From Physcomitrium patens (Eukaryota > Streptophyta > Bryopsida > Funariales > Funariaceae): DNA of 64,000 bases. Positions within the stretch are counted from its first letter, which is position 1, and the number at the start of each line of letters is the position of its first letter. Where the stretch lies: NCBI RefSeq assembly GCF_000002425.4, contig NC_037253.1, positions 12,183,145 to 12,247,144 of the forward strand, in the 5' to 3' direction. The translations under genes and the position numbers were made by a program. Below, piece after piece: positions 3,923 to 55,845 of the stretch. Under the pieces are notes generated by a model, which was not told the origin of the DNA, ran no database searches, and saw only the letters and a list, made by a program, of their open reading frames with translations.

Positions 3923-4471
3923 TCTCAGGGACATGAATCTTAAAGAAAGAAAATCTTCAATATACTCTTGTGTCACTAAAAAGAACTAAAAAGTCACTCA
4001 AAAGATAATATGATATTAACTAGAATGGCTATTGCTAAAAAGAAAAAAACTAAAAAGACTTCAAATAAGACTAAAGACTAGAACTACATTGATAAGAGTG
4101 AAGAAGGCTTCATTCTTGCCTCTATATATACTCTTAAGTAGGAATTATGTGAGGATGTCCTATAGGACCTTGAAAACATGTTGACTTTGCTAGCCACATG
4201 TTTTGACTTGATAGGCAAGTTATTTATGTATGTGCCACATGCTTAGTTTGTTCCATAAGCTATTATATAGAGTTAATTTGTTTCATAAGCTGTCAACACG
4301 TGGTTAACTTTTTGGCCAAGTTTCTAACCTACACATACATCTAAAGTCAAAATTGCATCTATAAAGCTTTTAAGAAGCTTCACTAAAAGACTTTATGAAA
4401 TTAATCTATATTTATATACTTCTACCTAATCATATAAGTAATTATTGATGTAAATATATATATCCATGATA
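3923..4471 (-). repeat. 3' LTR of element A
   Basis: About 549 bp, aligned over its length with the LTR at 12011-12555 and more distantly with the 530-bp LTRs of element C. The ends are decayed forms of TGTCA and TGACA. The neighbouring CCCTCCTTCT at 4476-4485 corresponds to the polypurine tract read on the minus strand. Confidence 0.85.
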
Positions 4472-11997: not shown

Positions 11998-12008
11998 ACT
12001 CTTATCAA
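11998..12008 (-). promoter_or_regulatory. Candidate self-primer binding site of element A
   Basis: Minus-strand TTGATAAGAGT starts after a 2-nt gap from the 5' LTR, as in elements C, B and I. It pairs at 10 of 11 positions with the predicted first 11 nt of A's own mRNA (ACTCTTCTCAA, minus strand 12183-12173). Confidence 0.55.
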
Positions 12009-12010
12009 AC

Positions 12011-12555
12011 TGTCAAAGACATCAATCTCTAAGAAAGAGAATCCTCAATATATTCTTGTATCATTGAAGAGAACTAGAAAGTCACTCAAAAATTAATATA
12101 ATATTAATTAAAATGGCTATTACCAAAAAAAAAGTAAAAAGTCTTAAAACAAGACTAAGGACTAGAATTGCATTGAGAAGAGTGAAGAAGGCTTCACTCT
12201 TGCCTCCATATATACTCTTAACTAGGAGCTATGTGGCAATGTCCTGTAGGACCTCCAAAACATGTTGACTTTACTAGCTACATGTCTTAACTTGTAAAGT
12301 AAGTTATTTATATATGTGCCACATATTTAGCTTATTCTATAAGCTATTATGTAGAATTAATTTATTCCACAAGCTACCAACACGTGATTAACTTGTTGGC
12401 CAAGTTTCTAACCTACAAATATATTTAAAGTCAAAATTACATTTATGAAGATTCTAAAAAGCTTCACTAAAAGACTTTATGAAATTAATCTATATTTACT
12501 TACTTCTACTTAAACATATAAGTGATTATTGAGGTAAATGAATATGTCCATGACA
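12011..12555 (-). repeat. 5' LTR of element A
   Basis: 545 bp, ends TGTC...TGACA (plus-strand reading). On the minus strand it holds a TATATAT box whose first T is at 12214, and a predicted transcription start at 12183. A hairpin (AGAGTGAA...TTCACTCT) lies between them, as in C. Confidence 0.9.
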
Positions 12556-16320: not shown

Positions 16321-16477
16321 TTTGAAAGAAAAAAATGGAATATCTAAACAATTTTTACTCACAAGAGGATAATCTATAACCTCTAAAGTACTTAAATGTC
16401 TACAAGAAGAGGGATAATCTACTATCTATTAAGAAGGATCAAGCTCTAATGTTGATAAGAGGGAAATTTCAACAAAT

Positions 16478-16870
16478 TGTGACTAATATACTATATAGTA
16501 GACCAAACAAGAAATTGAACATAAGAATTTCAGCAAGAAAACTAGCATGAACTTGATTAAATCTAACATAAGATCAATATCAAGAGAGGTGAATTAGAAC
16601 TCTAAGAGATGTATTGTCGAGACTAAGGATCTTTTCAACCTCCACTCCAATATATATTAGGTATGAAAAAGCTTCTTGAAAAGTTTTTATAGTGCTTGGA
16701 GATGAAGCAACCCTAAGATCCTTCTAAGACAACTTCTTTAATCTTTTTAGAACTTTTTAGAATCTAATAGAATATTTTAAGATTTTTTTAAAAATTTCTA
16801 AAATATTCTAAAAATCTCTCTTTAATATTTTATTTAAATATTTTTAAAATCTTTTTATTAGATATTTGTA
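16478..16870 (-). repeat. 5' LTR of element G (B family)
   Basis: Homologous to the 392-bp LTR of element B read on the minus strand. The gag-side edge is at 16478; the outer edge near 16870 is approximate. It keeps the TATATATT box (16656-16649, minus strand) and, 32 nt downstream, the 11-mer AGTCTCGACAA (16624-16614). That 11-mer is the exact complement of B's leader site. G's own leader copy at 16475-16465 has decayed to TTGTTGAAATT. Confidence 0.75.
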
Positions 16871-17999: not shown

Positions 18000-18845
18000 A
18001 ATTGTGGATGATGTTGAAATAAGTTTGCAATATTTTAAAATAATATTTTAAGATTTATAGCCATCGACTAATTAAATTGAAACAAAAATTTATAAATTTT
18101 TAGTTGATTTGATTTTAAAAAAACTTGCAAAGACTAAAAGCCATTGAACAATGAAATCAAGAGATATTAATACTAGAAGATTGGCATCAAAGTTAGAAAA
18201 AGAAACCAACTAACATTCAAGTGGATTTTGGAGATTATCTTCTTTTTAGTGAATTTAATTTTCTTCAAAAAAAATTTATTTTAAATTAAATAATTAAGAA
18301 GTTTTCAAATTTTGAGCATAAGTTTTTAAATTGAAACAAATTCAAATCTACAGTTAAATTATTAGTTATTTAATTTTTAATTTGTTATTATGATGGTTAA
18401 AAATTAATTTAGAATTTAAGATTTGATTAATATTTCATTAAAATTTGATTTGGGATTTAATATTTTATTTAAGGTTTAGAATTTGATTAAGATTTTATTA
18501 GGATTTATTTAGATTTTATTGAAATTTTATTAAGATTTATTTAGAAATGTATTAATTTTTAATTAGGATTTATTTAAAATTTGGTTAAGATTTGTTTAGA
18601 TTTTACTTAGGATTTACTTGGAATTTATTTAGGATTTTTTTTAGGATTTTTTAAAATTTCTTTTATAATTTTTTTAAAAATACTTTGGAATTTGATTAAG
18701 ATTTGATTTGGATTTTTAAGCTTTAATTTATATTTATTTATAATTCTATTCAAATTGATAGAGCTTTGTTGTTATAATTTCTAATTTATTTTCTACAATC
18801 AAATATCTAGTGCATTCTTGAGTAAGACTTCACATAACCACATAT
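18000..18845 (+). repeat. K1: repeat element with GATTTGATTAG-like satellite core
   Basis: Homologous to the reverse complement of K2 (28202-30030). Both share a unique block (CAACATCCAAG / CTAACATTCAAG, then CTTCTTTTTGGTGAATTT-like), then the decamer tract, then a terminal block (ATCTAGTGCATTC / CCTGATGCATTC). Only the right part of the repeat is recognisable here; the left limit is uncertain. No protein coding capacity is seen. Confidence 0.65.
18420..18735 (+). repeat. Degenerate tandem decamer tract in K1
   Basis: Repeats of a 10-12 bp unit such as AGGATTTATTT and GATTTGATTA, strongly degenerate. It is the inverse-orientation counterpart of 28480-28985. Confidence 0.7.
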
Positions 18846-21434: not shown

Positions 21435-22951
21435 TTGAGTTTTTATGATGCAATTAAGTCTACAGATGCTTTGAAGTGGGAGAAAGCCATAGAAGAAGAG
21501 TATCAATCAATCATGGACAATGAAACATGGGAATTGACTCAACTTCCACTAAATCAAACTTCAATTGGTTGTAAGTGGGTGTGTAGAATAAAGAAGGATG
21601 CAATAGACAATGTTATGAGGTATAAGGCAAGATTGGTTGCCAAAGGCTATTCACAAGTTTTTGGTATTGATTTCAATGAGACATTTGCTCCCATGGCCAA
21701 ATTCACCACTATTAGAACCATTGTAGCAATTGAAACAACAATAGATTTAGAGATGCATCAAATGGATGTGAAGACAGCTTTTTTGAATAGAGAGTTGAAA
21801 GAAGACATCTACATGGATCAACCTCAAGGATTTGTTGAAGAAGGTAAGCAACACCTTGTTTGTAAGTTGAAAAAATCTTTGTATAGATTCAAGCAATCAC
21901 TAAGGATATGGTTCCAATGCATTGACATATTCTTTGTGAATGAGGGATTTGTCAGAAATAAAGGTGATCATTCCATGTATGTGATGCAATCAAAATTCTT
22001 CTTGTTGATTTTTATTATTTATGTTGATGATTTAATCATCTTAAACTACACCTTGAAAAAGATGGATTGATTGAAGGCAAAGTTAGCTAAAGAATTTGAG
22101 ATGAGTGTTTTGGAAGAGCTCCAATATTACTTAAGAGTAGAATTTGTGAGAGATCAAGCTAAGAAGATCATTACATTAAGCCAAAAGAAGTATATTGAAG
22201 AAGTGTTGAAACGATTCAACATATTGTAAGTCTATTGGAACACCATTGGAGGCCAATATGAAGTTGATGAAGTTCACGGATGAAGAATTGAAAGATGTTC
22301 TATACAAGGCAGCAGTAGGCAATGGTTGGTACAAGCATGGATCTTGCATATGCGATGAGTGTTGTGAGTCAACACATGTTAAAGGCTAGACCAATCCATT
22401 GGGCAATCAATAAGAGGATCTTGAGGTATTTAAAAGGTACTTTAAATGTCAAATTGTGCCTTGGAGGTGATAATATTGCATTGCATGGTTATTGTGATGC
22501 GGATTGGATTGGAGATACAAATGATAGAAGGTCAATAATGGGATATATATTTTTTGTTAGAATGGGAGCAATTTCATGGAATTGCAAGAGACAACCAACA
22601 ATTGCAAGGTCTACAATGGAAGCAGTGTACATGGCAGCAAGTCATAGTGTAATGGAGGCAATATGACCAAGACAAATTTTAGAAGACATTGGACTTGTGT
22701 AATTGGAAGTAAATTCAATGAAGTGTTACAATCAAGGATGCCTTGTCTTTACAAAGAATCCAAAGTATCATTCAAGGACAAAGTATATTAACATTCAATA
22801 TTACTTCATACAAAAAAAAAATGAAATCGAAGTGATTGACATGAGGTATTGTGCAACACAAGACATGCTTGCTGATTTGCTTACAAAAGCATTGGTGAAG
22901 GATAAATATTACAAATTGACAAAGGTATTAGGTTTAGAAGCCTTTAATTAA
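21435..22951 (+). pseudogene. Copia reverse transcriptase and RNase H
   Basis: Long open segments at 21435-22070, 22322-22666 and 22703-22951 give RT motifs (KWEKAIEEEYQSIMDNETWE, VAKGYSQVFGIDFNETFAP, MDVKTAFLN, active site YVDDLIIL) and RNase H (HGYCDADWIGD, then ARSTMEAVYMA). Stops and frameshifts at about 22068, 22230 and 22664 break the chain. It is the best preserved part of this element. Confidence 0.88.
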
Positions 22952-23311: not shown

Positions 23312-23609
23312 ATATTATTTATAAAATAAGAAAGAAAGAAAGATAAGATTAGTATTCTAAAAGTAGTATAAGTATCTAAAATAAAAATATATATTACACA
23401 ACCAACAATAAATATTATCTAACTTTCAATGTCTATATCAAAAAAAATATATATATATATGAAAGTTGAAAACATTATTGTAAAAGATAAGAACTCAATA
23501 AATGCAAATAAATAATTGAGTCATTTTTTTTAAATAAAAATGATAGAAAAAAATAATAAATATGTATATTCAATAAGAAAGTAGAATGGTGTTAGGGACA
23601 TAATCTTTA

Positions 23610-23776
23610 GAACCTTCTAGAGACAAGTTTCTAGAACCTTCTAGAAGCAAGTCTCTGGAACCTTCTAGAAGCTTTTTAATTAGTAGAAGATATTAGGGAC
23701 ATAGTCCTTAGAACCTTCTAGAGATAAGTTTCTAGAACCTTCTAGAAGTAAGTCTCTAGAACCTTCTAGAAGCTTC
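23610..23776 (+). promoter_or_regulatory. Heat-shock element array in the B LTR
   Basis: Alternating GAA/TTC units spaced by 2 nt, the binding pattern of plant heat-shock factors. Four-unit perfect arrays are at 23629-23646 (TTCTAGAACCTTCTAGAA), 23730-23747 (same 18-mer) and 23759-23776 (GAACCTTCTAGAAGCTTC). Three-unit arrays are at 23610-23622, 23658-23670 and 23711-23723. All lie 40-210 bp upstream of the TATA box. Heat response is inferred, not shown. Confidence 0.7.
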
Positions 23777-23849
23777 TTACTTGGTAGAAGTTGCTTGAGA
23801 AGCTTTCTAAATAGAAGTATATATTGGAATCGAGGCTGAAGAGTTCTTC

Positions 23850-23860
23850 AGTCTTGACAA
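23850..23860 (+). promoter_or_regulatory. Predicted mRNA 5' end and self-primer of element B
   Basis: AGTCTTGACAA begins at a CA step 32 nt after the first T of the TATA box. It pairs with the leader site 23984-23994 at 10 of 11 positions. The 3' LTR copy (27936-27946) reads AGTCGCGACAA, also 10 of 11, with a different mismatch. Related element G keeps the fully complementary AGTCTCGACAA. Confidence 0.55.
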
Positions 23861-23983
23861 CACATCTCTTGGAACTCTAGCTCACCTCTCTGGTGTTGTT
23901 CTCATCTGATTAATCTAGTTCTTGGTAGTTCTTCTTGAACTTCTTGTTAGATCTCGAGTCTGTATTTCTATGTCCGTGACAGT

Positions 23984-23994
23984 TTGTCGAGACT
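23984..23994 (+). promoter_or_regulatory. Candidate self-primer binding site of element B
   Basis: TTGTCGAGACT, 2 nt after the 5' LTR. It is the complement of AGTCTCGACAA at the predicted start of the B-family mRNA. A TATCAGAGC motif resembling a tRNA-iMet site lies about 25 nt further on, but lacks the TGG that would pair with the tRNA CCA end. Confidence 0.6.
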
Positions 23995-24147
23995 GCACTT
24001 ACCTCAGATATCAGAGCTAGTTTTTTTTTTGTTAGAATGTGGATTACCCCTCTGCTTGGAAGTCTACTAGCATTTTAGAGGTTGCGGATTATCCTCCTCT
24101 AAACCAATATTGTCTTCTTGTAGAGTCATTTCTGTCCTTCTTTTAGA

Positions 24148-27675: not shown

Positions 27676-28067
27676 TGTTAGGGACATAATCCTTAGAACC
27701 TTCTAGAGACAAGTTTCTAGAACCTTCTAGAAGCAAGTCTCTGGAACCTTCTAGAAGCTTCTTAGTTAGTAGAAGATATTAGGAATATAGTCCTTAGAAC
27801 CTTCTAGAGATAAGTTTCTAGAACCTTCTAGAAACAAGTCTCTGGAACCTTCTAGAAGCTTCCTAGTTGGTAGAAGTTGCTTGAGAAGCTTCCTAAATAG
27901 AAGTATATATTGGAATCGAGGCTGAAGAGTTCTTCAGTCGCGACAACACATCTCTTGGAGTTCTAGCTCACCTCTCTGGTATTGTTCTCATCTGATTAAT
28001 CTAATTCTTGCCAGTTCTTCTTGAACTTCTTGTTAGATCTCGAGTCTGTATTTCTGTGTCCACGACA
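27676..28067 (+). repeat. 3' LTR of element B
   Basis: 392 bp, homologous to 23590-23981 including the 101-bp duplication and heat-shock elements. Followed by the target duplicate AATGG. Confidence 0.92.
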
Positions 28068-28201
28068 AATGGTTATTGCCAAAAGATAGGAAAACTAGAA
28101 ATTCTTAAAACTAGATTGGAAGCAAAAAAAGAGTTGACAAGAGTGATGAAATCCTCACTATTACCTTTATATATACTATCTAATTAAGAGCTATGTAGTG
28201 A

Positions 28202-30030
28202 TGTTGTCATAATACATGGTGTTTACCTTGAGAATGCATCAGGCACCTAGCTGTAGAAGATAAAAGAAAAATTATAACAGTAAGTCTTAACAACTTTAAT
28301 AGATTCTTAAACAAATTATAATCAAATATTAGCAAATATAATCAAACATCAAATCAAATTCAATCAAAATTTCAAAAGAATTATGTAAAGAACACAAAGT
28401 ATTCTTAAAAAATATTTAAAAGAATCATAAAGAAATAATATAGAATTCAAAAATATACTAAAATAGAAATCTTAATAAAATATTAAAATGAAAACCTTAA
28501 TTAAATCCTAGTCAAATCCTAAAAAAATCCTAAACAATTCCTAATCAAATCTTAAATAAACCATAGTCAAATCCTAAACAAATCTTAACCGAATTCTAGT
28601 CAAATCTTAACAAATTCTAACCAAATCCTAATCAAACTCTAAACAAATCCTACTCAAATCCTAACAAATTCTAACCAAATCTTAATCAAATTCTAACCAA
28701 ATCCTAATCAAATCCTAAATAAATCTTAAATAAACCTTAATAAAATCCTAATCAAATCCTAAATAAACCTTAATCAAATCCTAACCAAATCTTAATCAAA
28801 TCCTAACTAAACTCTAAACAAATCCTAAACAAATCTTAACCAAATCCTAGTCAAATCCTAATCAAATCCTAAATAAACCTTAACCAAAACCTAATCAAAT
28901 CTTAAATAAATCCTAAACAAATCCTAATCAAATCCTAGTCAAACCCTAAATAAACTCTAACCAAATCCTAAATAATTCCAAGTAATTCCTATAGCAGATT
29001 TAAACCTCAATAACTAATGAATAAACCATTGATTTTAATTCAAATTTTGCACACCTCTTTAAAATTAAGTTAAAAATAAGCAAAAAAAATTTAAAGATCA
29101 AATTCACCAAAAAGAAGTTCAATCCTAATATTTACTTGGATGTTGGCTAGCCTCATTCTTCAATCTAAATGTGGAATTTTGAGCATCAATATCTCCTTAT
29201 TGAACTATTTGATTGATTTCAGATTTCTCACATACATAGGAAAATAATTCTTTTACCTACACACATAATTTCTACTCCAATCCAACTAATAGATTGCAAG
29301 AAATCTAAGAAACCCTCTTTGGACCTAAAACTCTACTTCTCGAGATTCTAACCCATTTAAACCTCAATAATCCTTGATCCACCCTTTTGATTAAGCTAAA
29401 ACTCACAACATATATTGAACACATATGTACCCACAAACTCTTAAAATTTCACTTATAGATCTAATGCCAAACTTACAAAATTCTCCAAAAATTATCACCT
29501 ACTTTATTTTACAAATCTAGAGTCACCCAAAACAAATCCTGACTTTCTAAGGTTCTTACAAAGTCAATACTCACTCAAATCACATCAAATCAAAACTCAT
29601 AAAAAACATATCAAGTCAAATTCTTAGATCCTATCCTTTGATTTCCAAAAAAAAACTCTAGAATTGTTGTCAGAGCTTGGTTTTGTGCCTTGGATCTGAT
29701 TTCAATCCTAGTTCATAACCGGCCTTCTTTAGGTATCAATATTTAGTTTTTTCTAGATAATTTTTGCTATAAACTACTATTAATTTTTTTTCAAAGGTGC
29801 CTATATTATTTATTTTTCTATTCTACCTTATTTTTCTTTATTTGTGGTCCTATAAAATGAATAGAAGCCTATTTTATAAAAAGGTAGTATTAGCACATTG
29901 AATTTTTCTATCCCTTGACTATTATCTATTTCTCCAAAATAATTTGTTACAATATATTTGAAATAAGATCTTCAAAAATATGATATTTTCTTCACCTTTT
30001 CACCAATTACTATTTTACATCATGACAACA
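28202..30030 (-). mobile_element. K2: 1.83 kb LTR-like repeat with decamer satellite
   Basis: Interrupts D's LTR. Termini TGTTGTCATAAT and ATCATGACAACA are inverted (11 of 12 match) with TG...CA ends, as for a long solo LTR. No protein domain is seen. The decamer tract fills 28480-28985. No clean target duplication (AGTGA versus TTCTA). An inverted relative, K1, lies at 18000-18845. Confidence 0.6.
28480..28985 (-). repeat. Tandem decamer satellite AAATCCTAAT in K2
   Basis: About 50 imperfect copies of AAATCCTAAC/AAATCCTAAT/AAACCTTAAT, period 10-11 bp, over 500 bp. Better conserved here than in K1. Confidence 0.88.
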
Positions 30031-30639: not shown

Positions 30640-31636
30640 CACAAGAAAGGAAAAGTTATAGCATTAAGATGGATGATGATTTCAAAAAAAATATAGAAAT
30701 AAATAAATTTTGATCTTCTACCATTTCTAAAATACAAAATAAGAAGATTCCATAGGAAGCATTATTGAAGACTATTGCTACAATTTGTCGCCCAATAAGT
30801 TGAGAAGATCTTATAGAGAGTCTTTTAATCAATATATATATTGCTAAAAACCAAGGTTCTATAAAAACACAACTTTTATTATGTATTGCATAAGATTTCA
30901 TTTGCACAATTCTTATTGTAGCTGAAAAAACTTTTTTTCCAATATATCATTTTCTTTACCAACAATGCTTATCATTTTGTCATTGAATTGTTTTTTTCAG
31001 CAATATTGGATTCAAAAATTGTCATATTGGATGTTGAAGTTACTATATGATATCAATCACATCCTCTCTTTCTTCATATATTAATTAATTATTATTTTTT
31101 TTAATTTTTTTTTAATATTAACTATTCTATTATTTATTAATATTAACTCAATCATTACTATTAATATATGTATGTGGTATTAAATTTAAATTGTGTTTAA
31201 ATGTAATGCTAGTACATTGGATGCCAATGCTACATTAGATTTTAAATCCAATACCAATACTAAAAAAATGCTCCATTGGCTATTTAGAACTTGCATAATT
31301 GTAAAAAAATAAAATAAAATAAAAAAATCAAACATTAAGACAGTAAGACAAAAGAGATGAAAAAATATAAAAAAATCACTTTGACTTTGTTCTTGGTGCC
31401 TTTCAAAAAATAAATTGTTGCATGCTATGACTTGAGCAATAATTTTTTTAATAAGTGCACTTTTAAAATTTTAATTAATAGATCTTTAATATTATCTTTT
31501 AATCCATATTAAAATTAATTAATAAGAACTTTATCATTTTAATCCACATTACAAGCAAGGTTTTGAAATTCAATAACATATATGATAGTTGATCATAATC
31601 CTTGTTATATAAATAGAAATTTTATCTTTTCTACTG

Positions 31637-31676
<40 letters not shown>

Positions 31677-32700
31677 TTAGATTACATGAATTAAATAGAA
31701 GTAAGTAGATTCTACAATATCATATTAAAAAAAACTTCTTAAAAGCTTTATAGATATAGATTTGAGTTTATATGTATTTGTAGGTAAATGGTAGGTTGAA
31801 AATTTGGCCAATAAGTTGGCCACATATTGCACATACTGATAATTTATGGTGTAAGTGGACTACATGATGTACATGTAAAAATCTTGTCTTACAAGTTGGA
31901 CACATGTCAGAGATTCTATAGAACATTGTTACGTATTTCCTAATTAGATAGTATATATGGAAACAAAAGTAAAGCCTTCTTCACTCTTATTAATGATTTT
32001 TTTATTCTTAAAATTATTTCAAGAGTCTTTTATCTTCTTTTCTTTGACAATGGTTATTCTAATCATGATATTATATTATATTTGAATGATTTTTTTATTC
32101 TTTTCTAGTAACACAAGAGTCTATTGATCTTTTGATTTTGTATGCTTCATATCTTTAACAACTATCATTTCTCAATCATTCTCTATAAATGTAGTTGTAA
32201 AAAATACTATGAATGAATTTAGATTATATAAGAATTGTAAATCATTTTCCATCAAAGGTTCAAACTACAAGAAAATATTTTAAAATATAAGAGCGTTTAT
32301 GATTCTAACTTGAGTAAATCTATTAGGATATTGAAAAAAAATATAATCTTAAATAGAACTTAATTAATTGTAGAAATCATCATAATTTTGATCTTATTCC
32401 AAAAAAATCTTTGGCATACAAATCTTTGTTTCTTTTATATTCATAGTAATAAGATTTTTTTGTTTCACTTGTGAAATTGTTTTAGTTGCTTCTCTCAACT
32501 ATACAACTTTTTAGCATAGATAGTAGATTTCATTGTTGACTTCTTTCAAAGGCATAAAAATAGTACTTCCATTGTTAGTATTGATGATATATGAAATTTT
32601 ATTCTTAAGAGTGTTGACAAGCTTGTGAAGTTTTGCAATATTTACAAATCTATTTTTATATTTACAAAGTATAGTATTTATATTTTATTTTATCTTCTTA
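30640..32700 (-). pseudogene. Element D gag and protease start, split by a solo LTR
   Basis: Minus-strand 30907 onward reads MQMKSYAIHNKS, the start of A/C-type protease (compare A: MQLKSSAIPNKG). 31390-31634 and 32161-32690 align with the gag region of element A at about 10985-11770 (for example GATCATAATCCTTG / GATCATGATCTTTG). The two gag halves flank the LTR at 31635-32160. No 5' LTR is recognised beyond 32700. Confidence 0.65.
31635..32160 (+). repeat. Solo LTR of the A/C chromovirus family
   Basis: 526 bp on the plus strand, from TGTCATATAT to CTTTAACA, aligned along the C LTR (GGCCACATATTGC, TTCTATAGAACAT, GATAGTATATATGG, CCTTCTTCACTCTT). Inserted into D gag; flanking TCTAC and ACTAT are a plausible decayed duplication. 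An (AT)n expansion (about 31639-31672) replaces the C segment ACATACATATAATTA. Confidence 0.75.
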
Positions 32701-33460: not shown

Positions 33461-33465
33461 ATAAA

Positions 33466-33995
33466 TGTCACGGACATACATATAATTACCTATATGAATA
33501 GATAAAAGTATGTAAAAGTAGGTTAATTGTGTAATATCTTCTAGAGAAGCTTCTTAGAAGCTTCATAGACGCTGCTTTGACTTTATAGGAGTCTATAGTT
33601 GACTTTTAGGTTAGAAACTTGGTCAACAAGTTAGCCATGTGCCACACATGTTGGAAGCTTAAAGAACAAGCTAACTACGTGGTCCATCCATAGAAAACTT
33701 GCCATGCAAGCAAAGGCATGTGGCCTAGAAAGTCAACATATATTGGAGGTCTTATAGAACATCCCCACGTGGCTTCTAGTTAGATAGTATATATAGAGGC
33801 AAGAGTGAAGCCCTCTTCACTCTTGTCAACTCCTTTCTTGCTTCTAGTCCAGGTTCAAGAGTCTTTAGTTTCTTGTCTTGTGGCAATAGCCATTCCAGTT
33901 TCCTTTTAATATACCTACTTGTTTATATTTTGACTTATTATATCGAGATAGCCTTTTGGTGTATATTTTCCCTCATCGAGTCTTTGTCCTTGACA
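33466..33995 (+). repeat. 5' LTR of element C
   Basis: 530 bp. TATATATA box at 33788-33795; predicted transcription start 33819. The hairpin CAAGAGTGAA...TTCACTCTTG (33800-33825) overlaps that start. Confidence 0.97.
33819..33829 (+). promoter_or_regulatory. Predicted mRNA 5' end and self-primer of element C
   Basis: ACTCTTGTCAA begins at a CA step 31 nt after the first T of the TATA box. It is exactly complementary over 11 nt to 33998-34008. The 3' LTR copy at 39619-39629 is identical. Confidence 0.6.
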
Positions 33996-33997
33996 GA

Positions 33998-34008
33998 TTG
34001 ACAAGAGT
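33998..34008 (+). promoter_or_regulatory. Candidate self-primer binding site of element C
   Basis: TTGACAAGAGT lies 2 nt after the 5' LTR, the position of a primer binding site. It is complementary at 11 of 11 positions to the predicted mRNA start. The only tRNA-like motif, TATCAGAGC (34019-34027), is more than 20 nt away and lacks the leading TGG. Confidence 0.62.
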
Positions 34009-34207
34009 ACACTTACAATATCAGAGCTTTGTTTTTTCTTGAGTAAGAGTGGATTACCCCTTTCTCTTGACAAGACATAAGCGTATTAGAAGTTTGCGGA
34101 TTACCCACTTCTAAACTGATATTGTTCTTAGTATCTTCTTTGTTATCAAGTCTTTCTTTTCTTTTGTCTTGAGCAATATCAAACAAATTTTTCTTCTTAG
34201 TGTCATT

Positions 34208-35212
34208 ATGGCAGAGCTTGTTGAAATGAAGAGTGCAATGGCACAAATGCAAGAGCAAATGAGGGAGTTAATGCTTGCGATGCATCAACTCAATTCACCA
34301 ACACAGGAAAGAACAAGAATAGCAGAAAGTGGAGATATAGAGATGATCGGAGCTGCTTCAACATCTACAACAAATCACGTTCCTTCTCCAATTGTACAAC
34401 ACCCTATAAGCACTAGAGAACCAAGAATTGCCTTACCTGAGAAATTTGATGGTACGAGATCAAAGTTTCGAGGGTTCATCAATCAAGTACAATTGGCAAT
34501 TGAACTTCAACCGCAAAGCTATCCAACTCCAGGATCACAAGTCAGGTTTATTGGCACTCTACTTTCTGGTTCTGCATTATCGTGGTTTTCGTCTTTTCTT
34601 GAACAACGAAATCCAATATTGGACAATTTGGAAGCTTTTTTGGCGGAGTTTCGATCTATGTATGGTGAACACGATGCAACTCGTGTTGCAACAAATAAGA
34701 TCCGAATTCTGCGACAAGGAAATCGCTCAGTAACAGTATATGCTTCACAATTTCGACAACTTGCAATTGACATCAAGTGGAATGATGCTGCACTCATCAG
34801 TCAATTTCTTTATGGATTGCAATACGAAGTAAAGAAATTGATGCTCAACTTACCTGATCCTCAAACTTTGAGTCAAGCAATCGATTTTGCGGTAAAATGT
34901 GATAATCGACTTTTTGAATTTCGATCTGAGAATCATTCACGGGAACCTCAACGTTATTACTCAATGGCAACATCAACATCTTTGCCAAACGTACATTCGA
35001 AAGTAGAAGACATGCAAATTGACGCGGTACGTTTTAAACCTCTAACTGAGCAAGAAAAGATTCGTCGTCGTCAAGAAAGATTATGTTTATATTGCGGAGA
35101 ACCTAAGCACACTGCTCAATATTGTCCAAAGAAACGACGCAACTATAAAATGAGGGGTACGACGGTCAAAGAAGACAACATGTCGGAAAACGGATCCGTC
35201 CAGCTACAATAG
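34208..35212 (+). CDS. Element C gag polyprotein
   Basis: Uninterrupted 334-codon frame from ATG 34208 (MAELVEMKSAMAQ) to TAG 35210-35212. An upstream in-frame ATG at 34169 exists, but the 34208 start gives the helical N-terminus expected and resembles B's start region. Domains: coiled-coil-like residues 1-30, the retrotransposon gag core (FDGTRSKFRGFINQVQLA near residue 80, then ILRQGNRSVTVYASQFRQLA), and a CCHC knuckle CLYCGEPKHTAQYC near residues 295-308. It builds the virus-like particle and binds the genomic RNA. Intact, so it might still be made. Confidence 0.92.
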   Translation: MAELVEMKSAMAQMQEQMRELMLAMHQLNSPTQERTRIAESGDIEMIGAASTSTTNHVPSPIVQHPISTREPRIALPEKFDGTRSKFRGFINQVQLAIELQPQSYPTPGSQVRFIGTLLSGSALSWFSSFLEQRNPILDNLEAFLAEFRSMYGEHDATRVATNKIRILRQGNRSVTVYASQFRQLAIDIKWNDAALISQFLYGLQYEVKKLMLNLPDPQTLSQAIDFAVKCDNRLFEFRSENHSREPQRYYSMATSTSLPNVHSKVEDMQIDAVRFKPLTEQEKIRRRQERLCLYCGEPKHTAQYCPKKRRNYKMRGTTVKEDNMSENGSVQLQ

Positions 35213-38200
35213 GGACCGTGCAGCTGGAACCTTGTACAATTCCTAATGAAGGTCCTATCCTCTCCTCAGAACCCTCTCCTTGTTTTATAATAGACTTATA
35301 TTTAGGACCTAAGAATTACAAAGCCTCTGCTTTATTAGATTCGGGAGCCTCAGCATGTTTTTTAGATGAACAATTTGTTAAAAGTCGTAAAATACCCTAT
35401 GTACAGAAACCTAAACCAGTACATGTAGAAGTCATAGATGGTCGTCCCTTGTCTTCTGGAGATGTCACTCATGAAACTCATCCTATAAAAGTAACAATAG
35501 ACGGTCATGATAGCTACATAGCTTTTAACATAATTAAATCCCCGTCCAATCCAGTTATTTTAGGTTTATCCTAGCTAGAAAAATATAACCCTCGAATAGA
35601 TTGGAATTCGCGTAAACTTGACTTTTCCAAAAGCGTTATTAATAGTTCTACGAACCAAGTAAAAAATTATAAGTCTAGTACAGTAAAACCCGTACTGATA
35701 GGTGCAAAAGCATTTATACACGCAGCAAAAGAAGGATCAACTTTTGCTATTTATGCTGCACCTATTTCTGAAAACGTAAAGACTTCAAGTAGCATTCCAA
35801 GTCAATATCAGGAGTATCAAGACGTTTTTGAGAAAAAGAATGCAGATATTCTTCCTGAGCATCGTCCATATGATTGTTCAATCGACCTCAAGGAAGGAAC
35901 TCAGCCACCATTTGGACCAATTTACAGTTTATCGCAAGATGAGATGGCTGAACTCAAGACATATATTGACGAGAATTTAGCGAAAAATTTCATACGCCAT
36001 TCAAAATCTCCAGCAGGAGCTCCGATTCTATTCGTAAAGAAAAAAGATGGATCTTTACGAATGTGTGTTGATTATCGAGGACTCAACAAGATCACAATCA
36101 AGAACAGGTATCCATTACCTTTGATATCAGGACTCCTTGACCAGTTGAATCAAGCTAAGATCTATACAAAAATAGATCTAAGAGGAGCATATAATCTAGT
36201 ACGGATCAAAGAAGGAGATGAATGGAAGACTGCATTTCGAACCAGGTATTGACATTTCGAATATAATGTCATGCCCTTTGGACTCACGAATGCACCAGCT
36301 GCTTTTCAACATCTCATGAATGATGTATTTCGTGAATTCTTAGACAATTTTGTCGTCTGCTATCTAGACGATATCCTGATCTATTCCAAGAACGTCGAAG
36401 AACATGAAATACATGTTCGTCAAGTATTACAAAAACTTAGAGATGCAGGATTGTACGCCAAGATGGAAAAGTGTGTATTTCACACTACTCAAGTTGACTT
36501 TTTAGGATACATCATTTCAAATGATGGTCTCATGATGGATTCTAAGAAAGTCCAAACAATCGTGGATTGGAAGATTCCAAGGACGGTAAGAGATGTCCAA
36601 TGTTTCTTGGGATTTGCCAATTACTATCGGATCTTCATCAAAGATTTCTCACGAGTTGCAGCTCCACTTACACGCTTGACTAGTAAAGATAAATTCCAAT
36701 GGAATCAAGAAGCGGAAGCAGCATTTGAAGCCTTGAAGACATCGTTTGTCTCTGCACCAGTCTTATATCGTGTTGACTTTTCCAAGGTATTTTTTATGGA
36801 AACAGACGCATCGGATTTTGCCTTGGGTGCAGTTTTATCACAAATGGGAACAGATGACAAACTTCATCCGATAGCTTTTCATTCAAGAAAATTCTCAGCA
36901 GCCGAGATCAATTATGAGATCCACGATAAAGAACTTCTTGCAATCGTGGATTCTTTTCAAGAATGGCGTCATTATCTAGAAGGTGCTTCTAGTCCAGTCA
37001 TTGTGTATACAGATCACAAGAACCTCGAGTATTTCATGTCAGCACGCGTGTTGAATCGTCGTCAAGCTCGTTGGAGTATGTCTTTATCAAGATTCGACTT
37101 CATTATCACTTATCGGCCAGGAAAACAACAAGGTTTGTCCGATGCCCTGTCTAGACGTTCTTATTTTGCACCAAAAGAAGGAGATGCAGCTTTTGAGCAA
37201 CAAAGAACGGTCCTCTTGAAATCGGAGCAATTTCATCTCCGAGCAGTGAAATCAACACTGACTGTTGATTCAACTTTTCTCAAGCAAATCCAGTCCAGTA
37301 TGTCCTCAGACCCTCTTGTTCATGATATCGAGAATAATTCTTCCAAGTCTCATGATTCTTCTAAGTTCGAGTTCAAGAATAATCTATTATATTTTGAAGG
37401 ACGCCTATATGTTCCAGAAGGAAAAGCACGTTTGCGTGTTCTTCAAGCACGTCATGACTTTCCAGCAGCAGGTCACTTTGGATATAATAAGACTTTGGAA
37501 CTCATATCAAGAGATTTTTGGTGGCCACAAATGTGGAAGTCAGTCAAAGACTTTGTACAATCATGTGATATTTGTTCAAGATCAAAAATTCCTCGACATC
37601 GACCTTACGGACTTCTTCAGCCATTACCTATACCAGAACAACCATGGTCTTCTGTTTCTATGGATTTCATCACAGATCTTCCAAACTCAAGATCTTATGA
37701 TTCTATATTTGTGATAGTAGATCGTTTCACCAAGATGGCACATTTTATGCCATGTACAAAATCTATCACAGGTGAAGAAACAGCTAAGCTTTTCATTGAT
37801 AATATCTATCGCTATCATGGATTACCTAAAGATATCATATCGGATAGGGGAACTCAATTTGTGTCGAGATTCTGGAGGACTCTTTTCAAGATTTTAAAAG
37901 TGGACATAAAGCTATCTTCAGCTTTCCATCCTCAAACTGATGGACAAACAGAGCGCGTAAACCAAGTCTTGGAACAGTATTTAAGGTGTACCATTAACTA
38001 TCAACAAGATGATTGGACAAACCTTCTGCCATTGGCAGAGTTTGCTTATAATAATACGGTACATTCCTCCACGCAACAAACACCTTTCTTTGTCAATTAT
38101 GGCTATCATCCACGACTTGATACTTTTGATTTTTCAAAAGTTGATAATCCTGCAGCAGAAGATATGGCAAATCGGTTGTCAGAGTTACATGCAATAATGA

Positions 38201-38706
38201 AGGCGCAGTTGAAGAAAGCTCAAGAACGGCAAAAGATAAATGCAGATGTATATCGTAAAGAGCAACCACAACTCAACGTGGGTGATAAAGTATGACTACC
38301 TCGTCGCAATATCAAGACCACTCGACCTTGTGACAAATTGGACTATCGTAGGCTTGGCCCCTTTTCTGTTTCTGAACAGATCAACCCAGTTGCATATCGG
38401 TTACATCTACCGGAGTCAATAAAGATCCATCCTGTATTCCACGTGTCTCTTCTTGAACCATATAAGACAGTGGATATACAAGGAAGAAGACAAATGCCAT
38501 CGCCTCCTATAGAAGTAGATAATAATGAAGAATTTGAGGTGGAAGAGATATTAGACTCAAGGCGGCGCCGAAATAAGCTGGAATATCTTGTTCATTGGTG
38601 CGGATATGATATTAGTGAGCGCACATGGGAGCCATCCAGGAATCTAGCAAATGCATCAGCTAAAGTCAAAGTTTTTCATCAACGACATCCATCAAAACCA
38701 AGATGA
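35149..38706 (+). pseudogene. Element C pol polyprotein (three point stops)
   Basis: One frame, -1 to gag, open from 35149 through the gag stop, with no AUG near its start. Protease: LLDSGASACFLDE near 35337. [19 protein letters not shown] and active site CYLDDILIYSKN near 36360. RNase H: METDASDFALGAVLSQ and YTDHKNLEYF. Integrase: zinc H-H-C-C (GHFGYNKTLELI, then CDICSRSK), DDE residues in SMDFITDLP, ISDRGTQF and GQTERVNQVLEQYL, then LDYRRLGPF. Chromodomain FEVEEILDSRRRRNKLEYLV and CGYDISERTWEP at about 38530-38635. Stops: TAG 35572 (Trp codon), TGA 36250 (Gly codon), TGA 38293 (probable Trp codon). Confidence 0.93.
35200..35227 (+). promoter_or_regulatory. Hairpin at the C gag-pol junction
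   Basis: CCAGCTACA / TGCAGCTGG pair at 8 of 9 positions around the loop ATAGGGACCG, which holds the gag TAG. Element B has the same loop length and stem, with one compensatory pair change. Confidence 0.6.
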
Positions 38707-38801: not shown

Positions 38802-39224
38802 ATGGAGAGCCAACAACCAGCAGATTCAACTCAAGAACCTTCGTTTGCTGACTTACCGGATGAGACATTGCGATTGTCACAACCTTCAAAACGACGCAAC
38901 CGAGATGAAGACCCTCAAGAACGACATGTTCTTCCTCGAATAGATGGTGAGATACAACGCGTTTGGTATCACGACCTTGGAAGAGATTCTCGATGTTTGG
39001 TGATATTATTGGAGGTAGGAACGACTCCTGATGGTGTTTCAAATGTATTATTTGAAGGAAGTTATGAAGGCCTCAACAGTGATCAAATAATAGGGTGGTT
39101 TTCTCGCCCTGGAATGGGACACTATCGATGGCTAAGAGGACCCATCAACTATCTTCGAAGAGAACAAAGATCAGAGTATGTAGCAAATACAATTCGCCGC
39201 ATATTAGATTTTCTCAATATATAA
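38802..39224 (+). CDS. Element C 3' extra ORF, unknown protein with GHYRWL motif
   Basis: An intact 140-aa frame 95 nt after pol and 41 nt before the 3' LTR. I do not recognise the family. Visible parts: a polar N-terminus (MESQQPADSTQEP), a basic patch (SKRRNRDEDPQERH), a predicted mixed alpha/beta core with CLVILLEVG and VLFEGSYEGL, the block MGHYRWLRGPINYLRREQRS, and a helical end (RRILDFLNI). No signal peptide, membrane segment or zinc motif. Homologues occupy the same place in elements A (same 423-nt length) and B. Position resembles that of env-like or accessory ORFs, but it has no envelope features. Expression would need splicing or reinitiation. Confidence 0.8.
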   Translation: MESQQPADSTQEPSFADLPDETLRLSQPSKRRNRDEDPQERHVLPRIDGEIQRVWYHDLGRDSRCLVILLEVGTTPDGVSNVLFEGSYEGLNSDQIIGWFSRPGMGHYRWLRGPINYLRREQRSEYVANTIRRILDFLNI

Positions 39225-39265: not shown

Positions 39266-39795
39266 TGTCACGGACATACATATAATTACCTATATGAATA
39301 GATAAAAGTATGTAAAAGTAGGTTAATTGTGTAATATCTTCTAGAGAAGCTTCTTAGAAGCTTCATAGACGCTGCTTTGACTTTATAGGAGTCTATAGTT
39401 GACTTTTAGGTTAGAAACTTGGTCAACAAGTTAGCCATGTGCCACACATGTTGGAAGCTTAAAGAACAAGCTAACTATGTGGTCCATCCATAGAAAACTT
39501 GCCTTGCAAGCAAAGGCATGTGGCCTAGAAAGTCAACATATATTGGAGGTCTTATAGAACATCGCCACGTGGCTTCTAGTTAGATAGTATATATAGAGGC
39601 AAGAGTGAAGCCCTCTTCACTCTTGTCAACTCCTTTCTTGCTTCTAGTCCAGGTTCAAGAGTCTTTAGTTTCTTGTCTTGTGGCAATAGCCATTCCAGTT
39701 TCCTTTTAATATACCTACTTGTTTATATTTTGACTTATTATATCGAGATAGCCTTTTGGTGTATATTTTTTCTCATCGAGTCTTTATCCTTGACA
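39266..39795 (+). repeat. 3' LTR of element C
   Basis: 530 bp. By eye it has six differences from 33466-33995: C/T near 39477, A/T near 39504, C/G near 39564, two C/T near 39770 and G/A near 39786. Confidence 0.97.
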
Positions 39796-39800
39796 ATAAA

Positions 39801-50175: not shown

Positions 50176-53100
50176 TTAAGATGAGACTGCAGTGGAGTTG
50201 ATAGTAGACGGTAAGATGACGGAGGTTTCATCATAGAAGATTGGTGGACAGACCAGATCGTCGGCAGATGCAGCCTCCATGCGGCGCTCCCAGTCGTGGA
50301 ATGCGTCTTCCTGAACAACACCTTCCACCTCCCCGTAAATGGCTGCGTGGAGGCTCTCAGCATGACGTCGCGCTTCAGCCAACTCCTTTTGAAGCGCTTT
50401 GATTTTTCCCGACCGAGAAGAATTGTCATGTGATTGGACTCCGGATAGCTTTCTGCTGTCTGAGTCTGCATATTGAAATCGAAGAAAAAAAAGCATAAGA
50501 ACGTTGAGACGATGTGAGTGCCAAACGCACGTTGAACATTTTCAGAAGATAGATGAGAACAAACCTGCTGCTTGAGGAGGGCATTTCTCGAAGTGTCCAG
50601 TGTCTCTGGAGGAGGTCCGGGTTGAAGCTCGGCTTAATCTTCGACAATCAAAGCCCATGGGATACAAAGCATCCGAGTGATTGGGTCCTTGCGACCCAGC
50701 TGTCCAGTGGACTACTGGAGTCTCCGGAGGCCACACCACTGGACACGGAAACCAGCTGTCGGAGGTATGTCCTGAACCTAGAACTCCACGCTGACCTCGT
50801 TCCCACGCCCAGATATCCCTACCGCCATCAGACATGGTGACCGTGTGTGCTGCCCCGCACGTAATGCCTTTGGATCCCGTGACAGGATGACAGTTTGCCG
50901 AGCTATCCCCGAACACGCGCACAGGAGAGAGAGCATCGCCGCTTCTTGAACCAGGGGGTCCAATTCCAGCGCAGAGGCCTAATCCTCCCTCCATTCCCCA
51001 CACCCAAACGTCACCTATTTCAGTAACCACAGCTGTGTGAAAGAGTCCACAGGCAACCGTCCGAAGCCGCTCGTTCGGAAGGCCTTCAACAGGAGCAGGG
51101 TAGGATTGATTTACCGTAGTGCCTTGACCTAATTGTCCATTCTCTCCCTGGCCAAATGTCCAACAAACGGACAATCGACCCTCTAAGCAAAAGCTCTCTT
51201 TCGATCTGGTGCTGGCACACTGTGTGAGATTACGGCTGGAAGATACGCGCGACGAGCCCCAAGCGGTCGACCTGAGGGAGGAACTCGTCACACTGTCTTG
51301 CCTCGTGCGCACGTTTGGAGAGTTTCGATTGTGTTCCAACTGGTCGACCATCGATTGATGAGTCCTGAAGAAACTATGCCTGGGAGTGGGGGAATCTTGG
51401 ATGACGTCCCAGCCTTGCTTGTTACGTCTACTTCTCGGGGAGTTCGGTTCCAATATAAGATCCGTAGGATTGTCATCCTTCACAGCAAGAATCGCAGTGT
51501 GAAATGCGCCGCAAGCAAGGTCAACTATAGAACCCACGACGGATGCGGCGAGATATTTCACAACCTGAGGGTATGGCCTGTCTCTGAAATCTCCAAGTCC
51601 TAGCTGACCAAATTGGTTGTTACCCCAGGCATAACAGTCGAGATCAATCTCATCTCTTCCTTCCACAAGAGCGACTATGTGTTCATTCCCCAAAGCGACT
51701 CGATAAACCCTGAGCCCCGAAAGTCCTCTTACCCTCTCAGGGCTCTCTATGTTTATGGCACGGTAGCTCATATCTCTGCTGCTGTGGTTGTCAGAATAGT
51801 CCGAAGGGTTGGACACAGCACCCCAGAGCCAAAGCGCACCGTCTATGTCTACAGCGCAAGACATCATGCCACCAGCTTCCACGAGGATGATCTGCACCAA
51901 TTTTTACTAGAATCTCAGAACTCACTCACAAATCAAGGTATAGCGATATTTCTCGTGAGGAATTCGGACACTCAGAAATCACCTTTGGCTGTATGCTCTC
52001 CCAGTCGGAAGTTGCTCCCTCGTGGCGCACAACCCCACTTCGGCGAACCTCATCGCCGGAGGTTCTGTGAGTGAAGGAAATTGGTGAGGGCTGCGATGTA
52101 GCCTTGTCACGACCAAGCTGACCGCCCATGTACAGTTAAGGAACAAGAGCTTCAAGCAGCATTTAAGCAAGTAAGAAACGCGTAGAGAGCATATTGATTT
52201 CGAGAGAGGAATTTGTAAAGAGAAAATGAATCGAATGTAAAAATTTCAGAGCTGGATACAGGCATTGTAACCCCAGGACCACACCACGCCGTCCGCAGTC
52301 AATGCGAGGTTGTGGTAAGCCCCAGCTGCGACCTGCGTAACTTTAGGTGGCCGATAGACGCCATCTTTGCCAAGCACGTAATGGGCGTGGGAGTTGTCCT
52401 CTCTCCCGATTGAGTGCGAGCCCCCAGGACTGTTTTCATTGTCAAGGTTCGTCCCAACGGCAACAAGGGTAGGTATAAGCTCGTCTTGGAAGACACCCGA
52501 TCGCCCAAATAGGCCTCGCCCCCATGAATACACATCTCCCGTGGCTGCACAAACACATTTATCTTCTGTCAATCGACATTTTCCAGGTATAAAATATTCC
52601 GCAGCCTTTGTGTAAATTCCGAAACCTTCCAGACTCAACGTCCGAATTTTGGTAGCTCCAGCAAGTGCAATAAGAAATAAGAGAGGTGGACAATTGCTAC
52701 GAAATGGAGGGATGCATTCAGAAACTCGCAAATCTCTGCCGCGGAAAACTCCGCCCAGAGTAGGAGCAAACTTGGATTCCTACACGAGTCACAGAAACTC
52801 GAGGGCTGCATGATTTGTGTGCTTAACCTCAACAGCAAGCTCCATCATTCTGGAACAAAGAAAAAGAGTCTTGTTCCAAAGGCAGTCAGTAGCTAAATGC
52901 GTTCCGCTTGCATTGTTCTCGTCAGAACGCGTAACGTCACACTGATGTCACAACCTTGAAGAGTTACACAGGTTTAACGAGCACTTCAATCCCAGGATAC
53001 ATTTCACCCCTGGTTTCTCCTGTGAGGATTCCGTCACACGATCTCATCAGCCTGCGCCTAGTTCAGTGCCATGCCCCGCAACAACCTCCACTTGCGTTCG

Positions 53101-55045: not shown

Positions 55046-55584
55046 TGTTGCAGATATATATATTTATTCCAACAATTATCTATATGAGTAAGTAGAAGTA
55101 GATAAAGGTAGATTAATTCTATAATATCTTCTAGAGAAGCTTTTTAGAAGCTTTTTTGACACAATTTTGACTTTTTGCATGTTTGTAGTTCGTTGGTAGA
55201 TTAGAAATTTGGTCATTAAATTAATCATGTACTACATATGTTGATAGCTTATAGCACAAGTTAATTATATGGTGCACATATAGAAAACTTATCTTGCAAG
55301 TTATAATATGTGTCTAGCAAAATCAATATGTATTGGAAGTCATATAGAACATTGCTATATAGTTCCTAGTTAAATAGTATATATGGAGGCAAGAGTGAAG
55401 CCTTCTTCACTCTTATTAATGCCTTTCTAGTCCTTAGTCTTGTTTCAAGACTTTTTGGTCTTCTTGTCTTTAACAATAGTTGTTTTAATTTAATATCATA
55501 TCATCTTTCAGTGATAATCTAGTCTTTTCAAGTGAAAAATATATATATTGATATTTTAGTTCTTTGAAATTCATGTCTCTAATA
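55046..55584 (+). repeat. 5' LTR of element I
   Basis: 539 bp, begins TGTTGCAGATATA, homologous to the C LTR. The TATATATG box starts at 55378, and the predicted mRNA start ACTCTTATTAA is at 55409-55419, 31 nt on. The leader site TTGATAAGAGT (55587-55597) again starts after a 2-nt gap and pairs at 10 of 11 positions. Confidence 0.85.
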
Positions 55585-55845
55585 ATTTGATAAGAGTCAT
55601 AATTTATTATTCTTATCTTATTTTAGAAGTGAGTGGATTATTCCACTTCTATTGTTGTGTTTTAAAAGTTATAAATTATCAACCTTTAAACACACTATTT
55701 ATTTTTTTAACACAACTTTTTTTCTTAAGGAAAGCAGATTATCCTTCTTTGTAGAAATTTTCATTTGATATTAGAGGTTACGGATTATCTTCCTTTAATT
55801 TGACTTGTATATTTTTTAAGTTATTTGAAATAGGAGAAAAAATCA

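Follow-up and report, generated by a model that had tools for sequence, protein, structure and literature searches.

Predicted self-primed reverse transcription in a moss chromodomain retrotransposon, beside a probable relic of a tRNA-Met primer site

Element C, a chromodomain Ty3/gypsy LTR retrotransposon in a 64,000-nucleotide stretch of Physcomitrium patens DNA (the window), appears to use the 5' end of its own RNA as the primer for reverse transcription, a reading to which we assign a probability of about 0.86 from comparison with related sequences. RNA polymerase II would start at A33819, a position deduced from the TATA spacing and from a variable position 12 at the edge of the primer site. 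The first 11 nt, ACUCUUGUCAA, would fold back on the complementary TTGACAAGAGT, 2 nt beyond the LTR, and, by analogy with Tf1, RNase H would cut after nt 11 and expose a 3'-OH. Minus-strand DNA would then begin 2 nt outside the LTR, giving 2 extra nt that integrase would normally trim. Because the RNA primer would be copied back into DNA during plus-strand synthesis, the site would stay matched to the primer, and the primer end may be what leaves the variable base at position 12. The copy of the primer in the 3' LTR portion of the RNA is predicted by in-silico folding to be locked in an 11-bp hairpin with U3, and the 5' copy, which has no U3 arm, would be free. A downstream TATCAGAGC would be the remnant of an older tRNA-Met primer site. 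That the first 11 nt of the RNA serve as primer had been proposed in a preliminary description of this DNA, and the comparative evidence gives the proposal good support.

Element C lies on the + strand between a 5' LTR (TGTCACGG...TTGACA; 33466..33995) and a 3' LTR (39266..39795), whose limits come from the LTR pair (a 532-nt match at 98.9% identity), and is flanked by a 5-bp target-site duplication, ATAAA (33461..33465 and 39796..39800). The gag ORF (34169..35212) matches Retrotrans_gag. One pol piece (36271..38295) carries part of the reverse transcriptase (RVT_1), RNase H and integrase, and another (38296..38706) carries a Tf2-1-like SH3 domain and a chromodomain. These C-terminal integrase domains match SH3_Tf2-1 with E 1.2e-18 and PF00385 with E 1.1e-15 (piece 38296-38703), and the chromodomain reads EEFEVEEIL...YLVHWCGY, with F, W and Y falling, by eye, at what we take to be the aromatic-cage places of HP1. 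The pol frame is broken (36253-38295) by an in-frame stop, and there is another break farther upstream; a recurrent stop was considered and dropped, as the 20 compared copies do not carry it. Between the chromodomain and the 3' LTR lies a 140-aa ORF (38802-39224) with no Pfam match; 11 of 20 other copies keep this frame open from end to end. The sequence pattern surrounding the C primer site has 1754 exact matches in the genome (930 + 824; backward control 0), and from this copy number C is likely to be identical with RLG1 of P. patens. According to the available portions of PMC7466625, RLG1 is the most abundant chromodomain gypsy family of this moss, is transcribed in protonema and has 5092 complete copies; the words "primer binding" do not occur in the main text of that paper.

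The TATA box, start box, LTR end and primer site of C all lie where the preliminary description had placed them. The start box ACTCTTGTCAA (33819..33829), the predicted RNA 5' end and self-primer, begins 31 nt after the TATA box TATATATAG (33788..33796), and a 2-nt spacer, GA (33996..33997), separates the LTR end from the predicted self-primer binding site TTGACAAGAGT (33998..34008). The complementarity between start box and site is perfect, 11/11 as described, and begins 2 bp after the LTR; the rule used for predicting self-priming in Neumann et al. 2019 (PMC6317226, passages available) is a match of at least 10 bp that starts 0-5 bp after the 5' LTR. Elsewhere in the C LTR the next-best pairing is 7/11, and none of 2000 dinucleotide shuffles of this LTR reached 11/11. 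On the + strand of the window ACTCTTGTCAA occurs twice, in the two C LTRs (the 3' LTR copy is at 39619..39629), and TTGACAAGAGT also occurs twice, once at the C primer site and once, at 28134, as the start box of an LTR fragment on the opposite strand. When the leaders of eight elements were folded in silico, the probability of primer:site pairing was 0.92 in C, 0.94 in L009 and L081, 0.92 in L080, 0.80 in A, 0.57 in L082, 0.01 in B and 0.00 in D. Neither the C leader (z -1.26) nor the B leader (z +0.54) folds with exceptional stability, and the idea of a specially stable fold was dropped.

Elements A, B and D of the window have the layout of C, a likeness overlooked in the preliminary description: the start box stands 31-32 nt after the TATA box, and the complementary site 2 nt after the LTR end. 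Element B (+ strand; 5' LTR 23590..23981, from its LTR pair) has the start box AGTCTTGACAA (23850..23860; AGTCGCGACAA in the 3' LTR copy at 27936-27946) and the primer site TTGTCGAGACT (23984..23994), followed by a probable tRNA-site relic, TATCAGAGC (24009..24017). Element A (- strand) has ACTCTTCTCAA in its 5' LTR (12173..12183), ACTCTTATCAA in the 3' LTR copy (4089-4099) and the site TTGATAAGAGT (11998..12008), and element D (+ strand) has the box ACTCTTATTAA (55409..55419) and the same site, TTGATAAGAGT (55587..55597). The 5' LTR start box matches the site at 10/11 in A (11/11 for the 3' LTR copy), at 10/11 plus one G.U in B, where the 3' LTR copy differs again, and at 10/11 plus one G.U in D; dinucleotide shuffles of the LTR did as well in 31/2000, 7/2000 and 31/2000 cases for A, B and D, respectively. 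B2, an old B-type element on the - strand, has the start box AGTCTCGACAA (16614..16624) and a decayed primer site, TTGTTGAAATT (16465..16475), which matches at 8/11 and, by eye, also stands 2 nt past the LTR end. An A/D-type solo LTR (31635-32161) seems to have inserted into an opposite-strand fragment of another element. The B LTRs (23590-23790 and 27676-27876) contain a 101-bp tandem duplication in U3 that is packed with GAAnnTTCnnGAA, the heat-shock element consensus; 15 of the 18 matches to it in the window lie within the B LTRs, as against 1.45 expected for the whole window, and element B may be heat-inducible.

Outside the window, the match was followed in L009, in L082 and in loci of the A, B and C families. 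L009 (CADCWO010000091.1), with 73% amino-acid identity over the best pol segment, is a contig filed under a cyanobacterial MAG; a chromovirus of moss type in such a bin is probably eukaryotic contamination, and it serves here as an independent relative. Its match is 11/11, extending to 12/12 if the preceding base is included, and is the sole inverted match of at least 10 nt at 100-700 nt spacing within its first 1800 nt. The 2-nt spacing between LTR and site is found in A, B, C, D, L009 (where the LTR end was judged by likeness to other elements) and L082, in which 2 nt separate the end of the LTR pair (433 bp, 97.2%) from the self site. Start box and site match at 11/11 in 18 of 20 loci of the C family, in 16 of 30 of the B family (a set in which L031 is element B of the window itself) and in 5 of 20 of the A family. 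The match is likewise 11/11 in 20 of 21 rows of the L082 subfamily, but these rows were retrieved with a pattern that fixes the site. A search of viral contigs for relatives of C found none. In many B-family copies (L036-L060 region) the leader 3' of the primer site has partial repeats, visible as a second, distinct match to the leader portion of the query a little farther downstream (28 extra matches), and the L082 leader has two partial matches to the leader query.

The boxes of A, C and D are ACTCTTGTCAA or decayed forms of it, and those of B, L009 and L082 are AGTCTCGACAA or decayed forms; the two groups differ at 3 of 11 positions, two of them by transversion, and each difference in the start box is compensated in the site. 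Cross-pairing of the C box with the L009 or L082 site, or the reverse, falls to 8/11, and B's decayed box pairs at 9 positions on the C site and 10 on its own. Over 53 aligned stretches, 93.7% of 583 cells pair as against 84.4% after shuffling (0/500 as high), and the covariation score is 0.251 as against 0.109 (0/500), figures whose significance the shuffles overstate because related copies share ancestry. Slid registers of the same stretches pair at 44.4% at most. Two of the five measures, the count of pairs with changes on both sides (4, as against 4.0 after shuffling) and that of pair types (12, as against 10.0; 27/500), do not rise above the shuffles. This alignment omitted 14 of the 20 C loci and 11 of the 30 B loci, mostly those with the commonest box forms, as well as L083. 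Compensation between A (or D) and C was dropped as covariation: the differences are mostly C-to-T or G-to-A, for which decay is enough, and the commonest box pair among 20 A-family loci is the same as in C. The changes in L033, which affect both boxes and the U3 arm, are also mostly C-to-T or G-to-A and may reflect decay; we keep this locus as a hint.

The first base past the C primer site (34009..34009), here called position 12, varies among copies and may be a scar of the primer 5' end. Of the 280 matches of the L082 subfamily, the first 100 give G67 A30 C3 at this position, so that 33/100 deviate, as against 11/700 at the seven other free positions (counted by eye; P 2e-23). When 21 rows of this subfamily are aligned, no column among about 325 varies more than position 12 (43%, with 19% in the next column and a mean of 1.06%); the rows comprise L082 together with 16 from the 18 listed for C1, the first two for C2, and two for C3, these last chosen because they had C at this position. 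The changes at position 12 are spread over the 21-row tree (7, as against a mean of 7.8 after shuffling), and this position is the one place in the stretch at which L082 and L092 differ. In the B family it is the sixth most variable column (G17 T10 A4 in 31 rows, with B counted twice). In the C family 19/100 deviate (first 100 of 1754 matches), the highest of eight free positions; the other seven together give 30/700 and the next highest 11/100, and the excess over the neighbouring position 13 is not significant (P 0.16). Among 25 C rows selected for similarity to the query, of which three repeat one locus under another name, 2/25 deviate and position 12 is outside the eight most variable columns. 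In the A family 3/21 deviate, a weak signal.

Reverse transcriptases add untemplated bases. Our reading is that plus-strand DNA would copy the RNA primer to its 5' end and that an extra or wrong base would be fixed on transfer. A G at position 12 could also reflect transcripts initiated one base upstream, at the C that precedes the A, and part of the variability may reflect old subfamily differences. If the scar reading is right, the primer is an RNA with its 5' end at the start box; the TATA spacing of 31 nt and the variable position 12 both fit the start box as RNA 5' end.

An 11-bp inverted repeat, overlooked in the preliminary description, spans the start site of C. Its U3 arm lies at 33800..33810 and its second arm at 33815..33825, and the last 7 nt of the second arm are primer nt 1-7, which places the start box partly in the 3' arm. 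Across the 53 stretches, 93.5% of cells pair between the U3 segment and the start box, and neither this value nor the covariation score of the hairpin was reached in any of 500 shuffles. Primer positions 2 and 6 are compensated in the hairpin; both-side changes and pair types do not exceed the shuffles (421/500 and 192/500). With the 5' LTR standing in for the 3' LTR, in-silico folding gives the hairpin a probability of 0.82-1.00, and the 3' primer copy pairs with the site at 0.00 in all 8 elements folded. When both ends were co-folded, the 5' copy paired with the site at 0.70-0.86 in C, L009 and L081, at 0.40 in L080 and at 0.00-0.02 in A, B, D and L082. These models suggest that the hairpin may hold the second primer copy aside.

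Past the self-primer site, C retains a motif that resembles a conventional primer site. The standard plant site is TGGTATCAGAGC (PMC7215508, passages available), and TATCAGAGC in C and B equals nine of its bases; our assignment to tRNA-Met follows from this published site. In C the motif (34019..34027) starts 24 nt past the LTR end and follows CAA in place of TGG, which bears out the earlier view of it as misplaced and without the TGG. The full tRNA-Met site is absent from C, which has only CAATATCAGAGC (tRNA-Met alone was compared); TATCAGAGC is exact in 23 of 30 B loci. The motif had also been dismissed as irrelevant, which probably holds for priming in C and fails for its relatives, some of which have the full 12-nt site. 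TGGTATCAGAGC follows the self-primer site at 301 exact genome places (155 + 146; backward control 0), and the 100 listed among them are all of the type TTGTC(G/A)AGACT, with 10 nt between the two sites. In L082 the distance from the LTR end to the start of TGGTATCAGAGC is also 24 nt, more than normal use would allow; neither C nor L082 has it within about 5 nt of the LTR end. By eye the motif is absent from A, D and L009, in which the self-primer sites remain.

Because so many places have a self site followed by an intact tRNA-Met site, TATCAGAGC in C looks like a relic, which is the simplest reading of the sequences, or else a second site, and not like an accident; the alternative is a tRNA-binding role. 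A tRNA-primed past would agree with SM2-Galahad of Selaginella, an element with a Tcn1-like group I chromodomain that has a tRNA-Met site just 3' of the LTR (PMC3350952, passages available). We offer tentatively, and with the odds somewhat against it, the wider proposal that an ancestor primed by initiator tRNA-Met gained a self site between its LTR and the tRNA site, that this switch is still visible, and that the base at position 12 is a general footprint of the primer 5' end. Under that proposal, some 300 places would keep both sites, C would keep only TATCAGAGC, and A and D would have lost the motif. If it is true, self-priming arose or was rebuilt in plants and was not simply imported with a fungal element, and the footprint of a primer 5' end can be read from genome sequence alone.

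Initiator tRNA-Met, or a form of it trimmed of CCA, might still prime at the downstream TATCAGAGC. The nine matching bases, their exact retention in most B loci and the 301 tandem places are what this explanation has in its favour. Against it, C has CAA where the TGG that pairs with CCA is expected, and in both C and L082 the match between the two LTRs gives out 2 nt short of the self site; since TATCAGAGC lies 24 nt past the C LTR, tRNA-primed cDNA would carry 23 nt of non-LTR sequence. The absence of the motif, by eye, from A, D and L009, where self sites persist, also counts against tRNA priming, which moreover leaves the covariation and the variable position 12 unexplained, and we regard it as improbable. 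Slightly less probable still is that a DNA palindrome of the core promoter, the start-site inverted repeat, produced the complementarity incidentally, the leader site being a duplicated piece of U3 with no part in priming. The U3 arm CAAGAGTGAAG does resemble the primer site TTGACAAGAGT, and the pairing and covariation of the hairpin exceed all 500 shuffles. However, the leader match reaches primer nt 8-11, past the palindrome of C, co-varies at nt 8, outside the hairpin of C, and keeps its 2-nt distance from the LTR in A, B, C, D, L009 and L082; in addition, B-type hairpins keep a G.U pair (21/53 rows), which fits RNA better than a DNA palindrome.

Shared ancestry alone would require one chance match that all copies inherited. 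A, B, C, D and L082 are indeed related, and the shuffle controls keep that relatedness. Yet three positions have changed in both boxes between lineages, two of them by transversion, the slid registers pair poorly, and the variable base stands exactly at the site edge, so that we consider this the least probable of the alternatives. Self-priming of C by the 5' end of its own RNA remains the preferred reading.

The preliminary description held that no plant element had been described as self-priming, a statement refuted by Neumann et al. 2019 (PMC6317226), whose available passages predict self-priming for most Tcn1-clade chromoviruses of mosses and club mosses, these having no tRNA sites, and also for the TAR lineage (Houba, Osr-1) of Ty1/copia. 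Self-priming in C is very likely on the sequence evidence; the claim to be first in plants fails. Like C, the Tcn1-clade elements are chromodomain Ty3/gypsy elements of non-seed plants, for most of which self-priming is predicted, and the TAR lineage is a further plant group with such a prediction, in another superfamily. The same passages report an aromatic-cage chromodomain in 95% of Tcn1 and argue for a fungal origin of the clade together with its self-priming (PMC6317226). The tandem tRNA site is relevant to this proposed origin. The published pipeline counts any 12-bp match to a tRNA that lies no more than 50 bp from the LTR (PMC6317226, passages available), a rule that could score copies with tandem sites as tRNA-primed. 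In the available passages of Novikova et al. 2010 (PMC2864245), elements of P. patens and Selaginella are grouped with fungal Tcn1, Tcn1 and PpatensLTR1 compare at 52%, and self-priming was sought and not found in Selaginella SM-Tcn1, which had neither kind of primer site. A Tremellales protein, the sole organism-named match to C among 120 listed of 7963, compares with C at 49%, close to that 52%.

C also resembles Tf1 and Tj1 of fission yeasts (Guo et al. 2015, PMC4600332, passages available), in which the primer is the start of the element's own RNA and its site adjoins the 5' LTR. The SH3 domain of the C integrase is Tf2-1-like, which fits this comparison. Tf1 self-priming reportedly rests on experiment, in Levin's Tf1 papers, whereas priming in C is predicted from sequence. 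Unlike Tf1 and Tj1, relatives of C retain a tRNA-Met site, and a predicted U3-R hairpin would lock the 3' primer copy.

Self-priming of plant chromoviruses is so far a short sequence-based prediction in the literature available to us, to which our analysis adds support from compensatory change between lineages, a second source organism, an 11-nt primer length and a possible primer-end scar, all of which could be tested on a very abundant type of retrotransposon. The covariation, primer length, mapping of the start site, tandem tRNA site and hairpin are absent from the Tcn1-clade account in the available passages of PMC6317226. In the open-licence literature, as far as its searchable passages go, we found no earlier account of self and tRNA sites in tandem, the variable position or a start-site hairpin, and the sole passage on two PBS that was found concerns a copia element of Anopheles (PMC3212995). 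As far as these searches reach, the tandem site, variable base and start-site hairpin are new; the tandem tRNA site and the position-12 footprint seem most worth following.

Several further features were noted. In the window, about 43 copies of an 11-bp unit, TAATCAAATCC, form an array at 28498-28971, and a related 11-bp array lies near 18416-18679 on the opposite strand. Genome matches of P0022 have at least one in-frame TGA in 39 of 40 listed and exactly one stop in 34; this TGA could be a stop fixed in an abundant family. By eye, a piece at 21435-22070 (+) is a copia-type reverse transcriptase, and a 452-aa ORF at 50542-51900 (-) has the look of an RCC1-type repeat protein.
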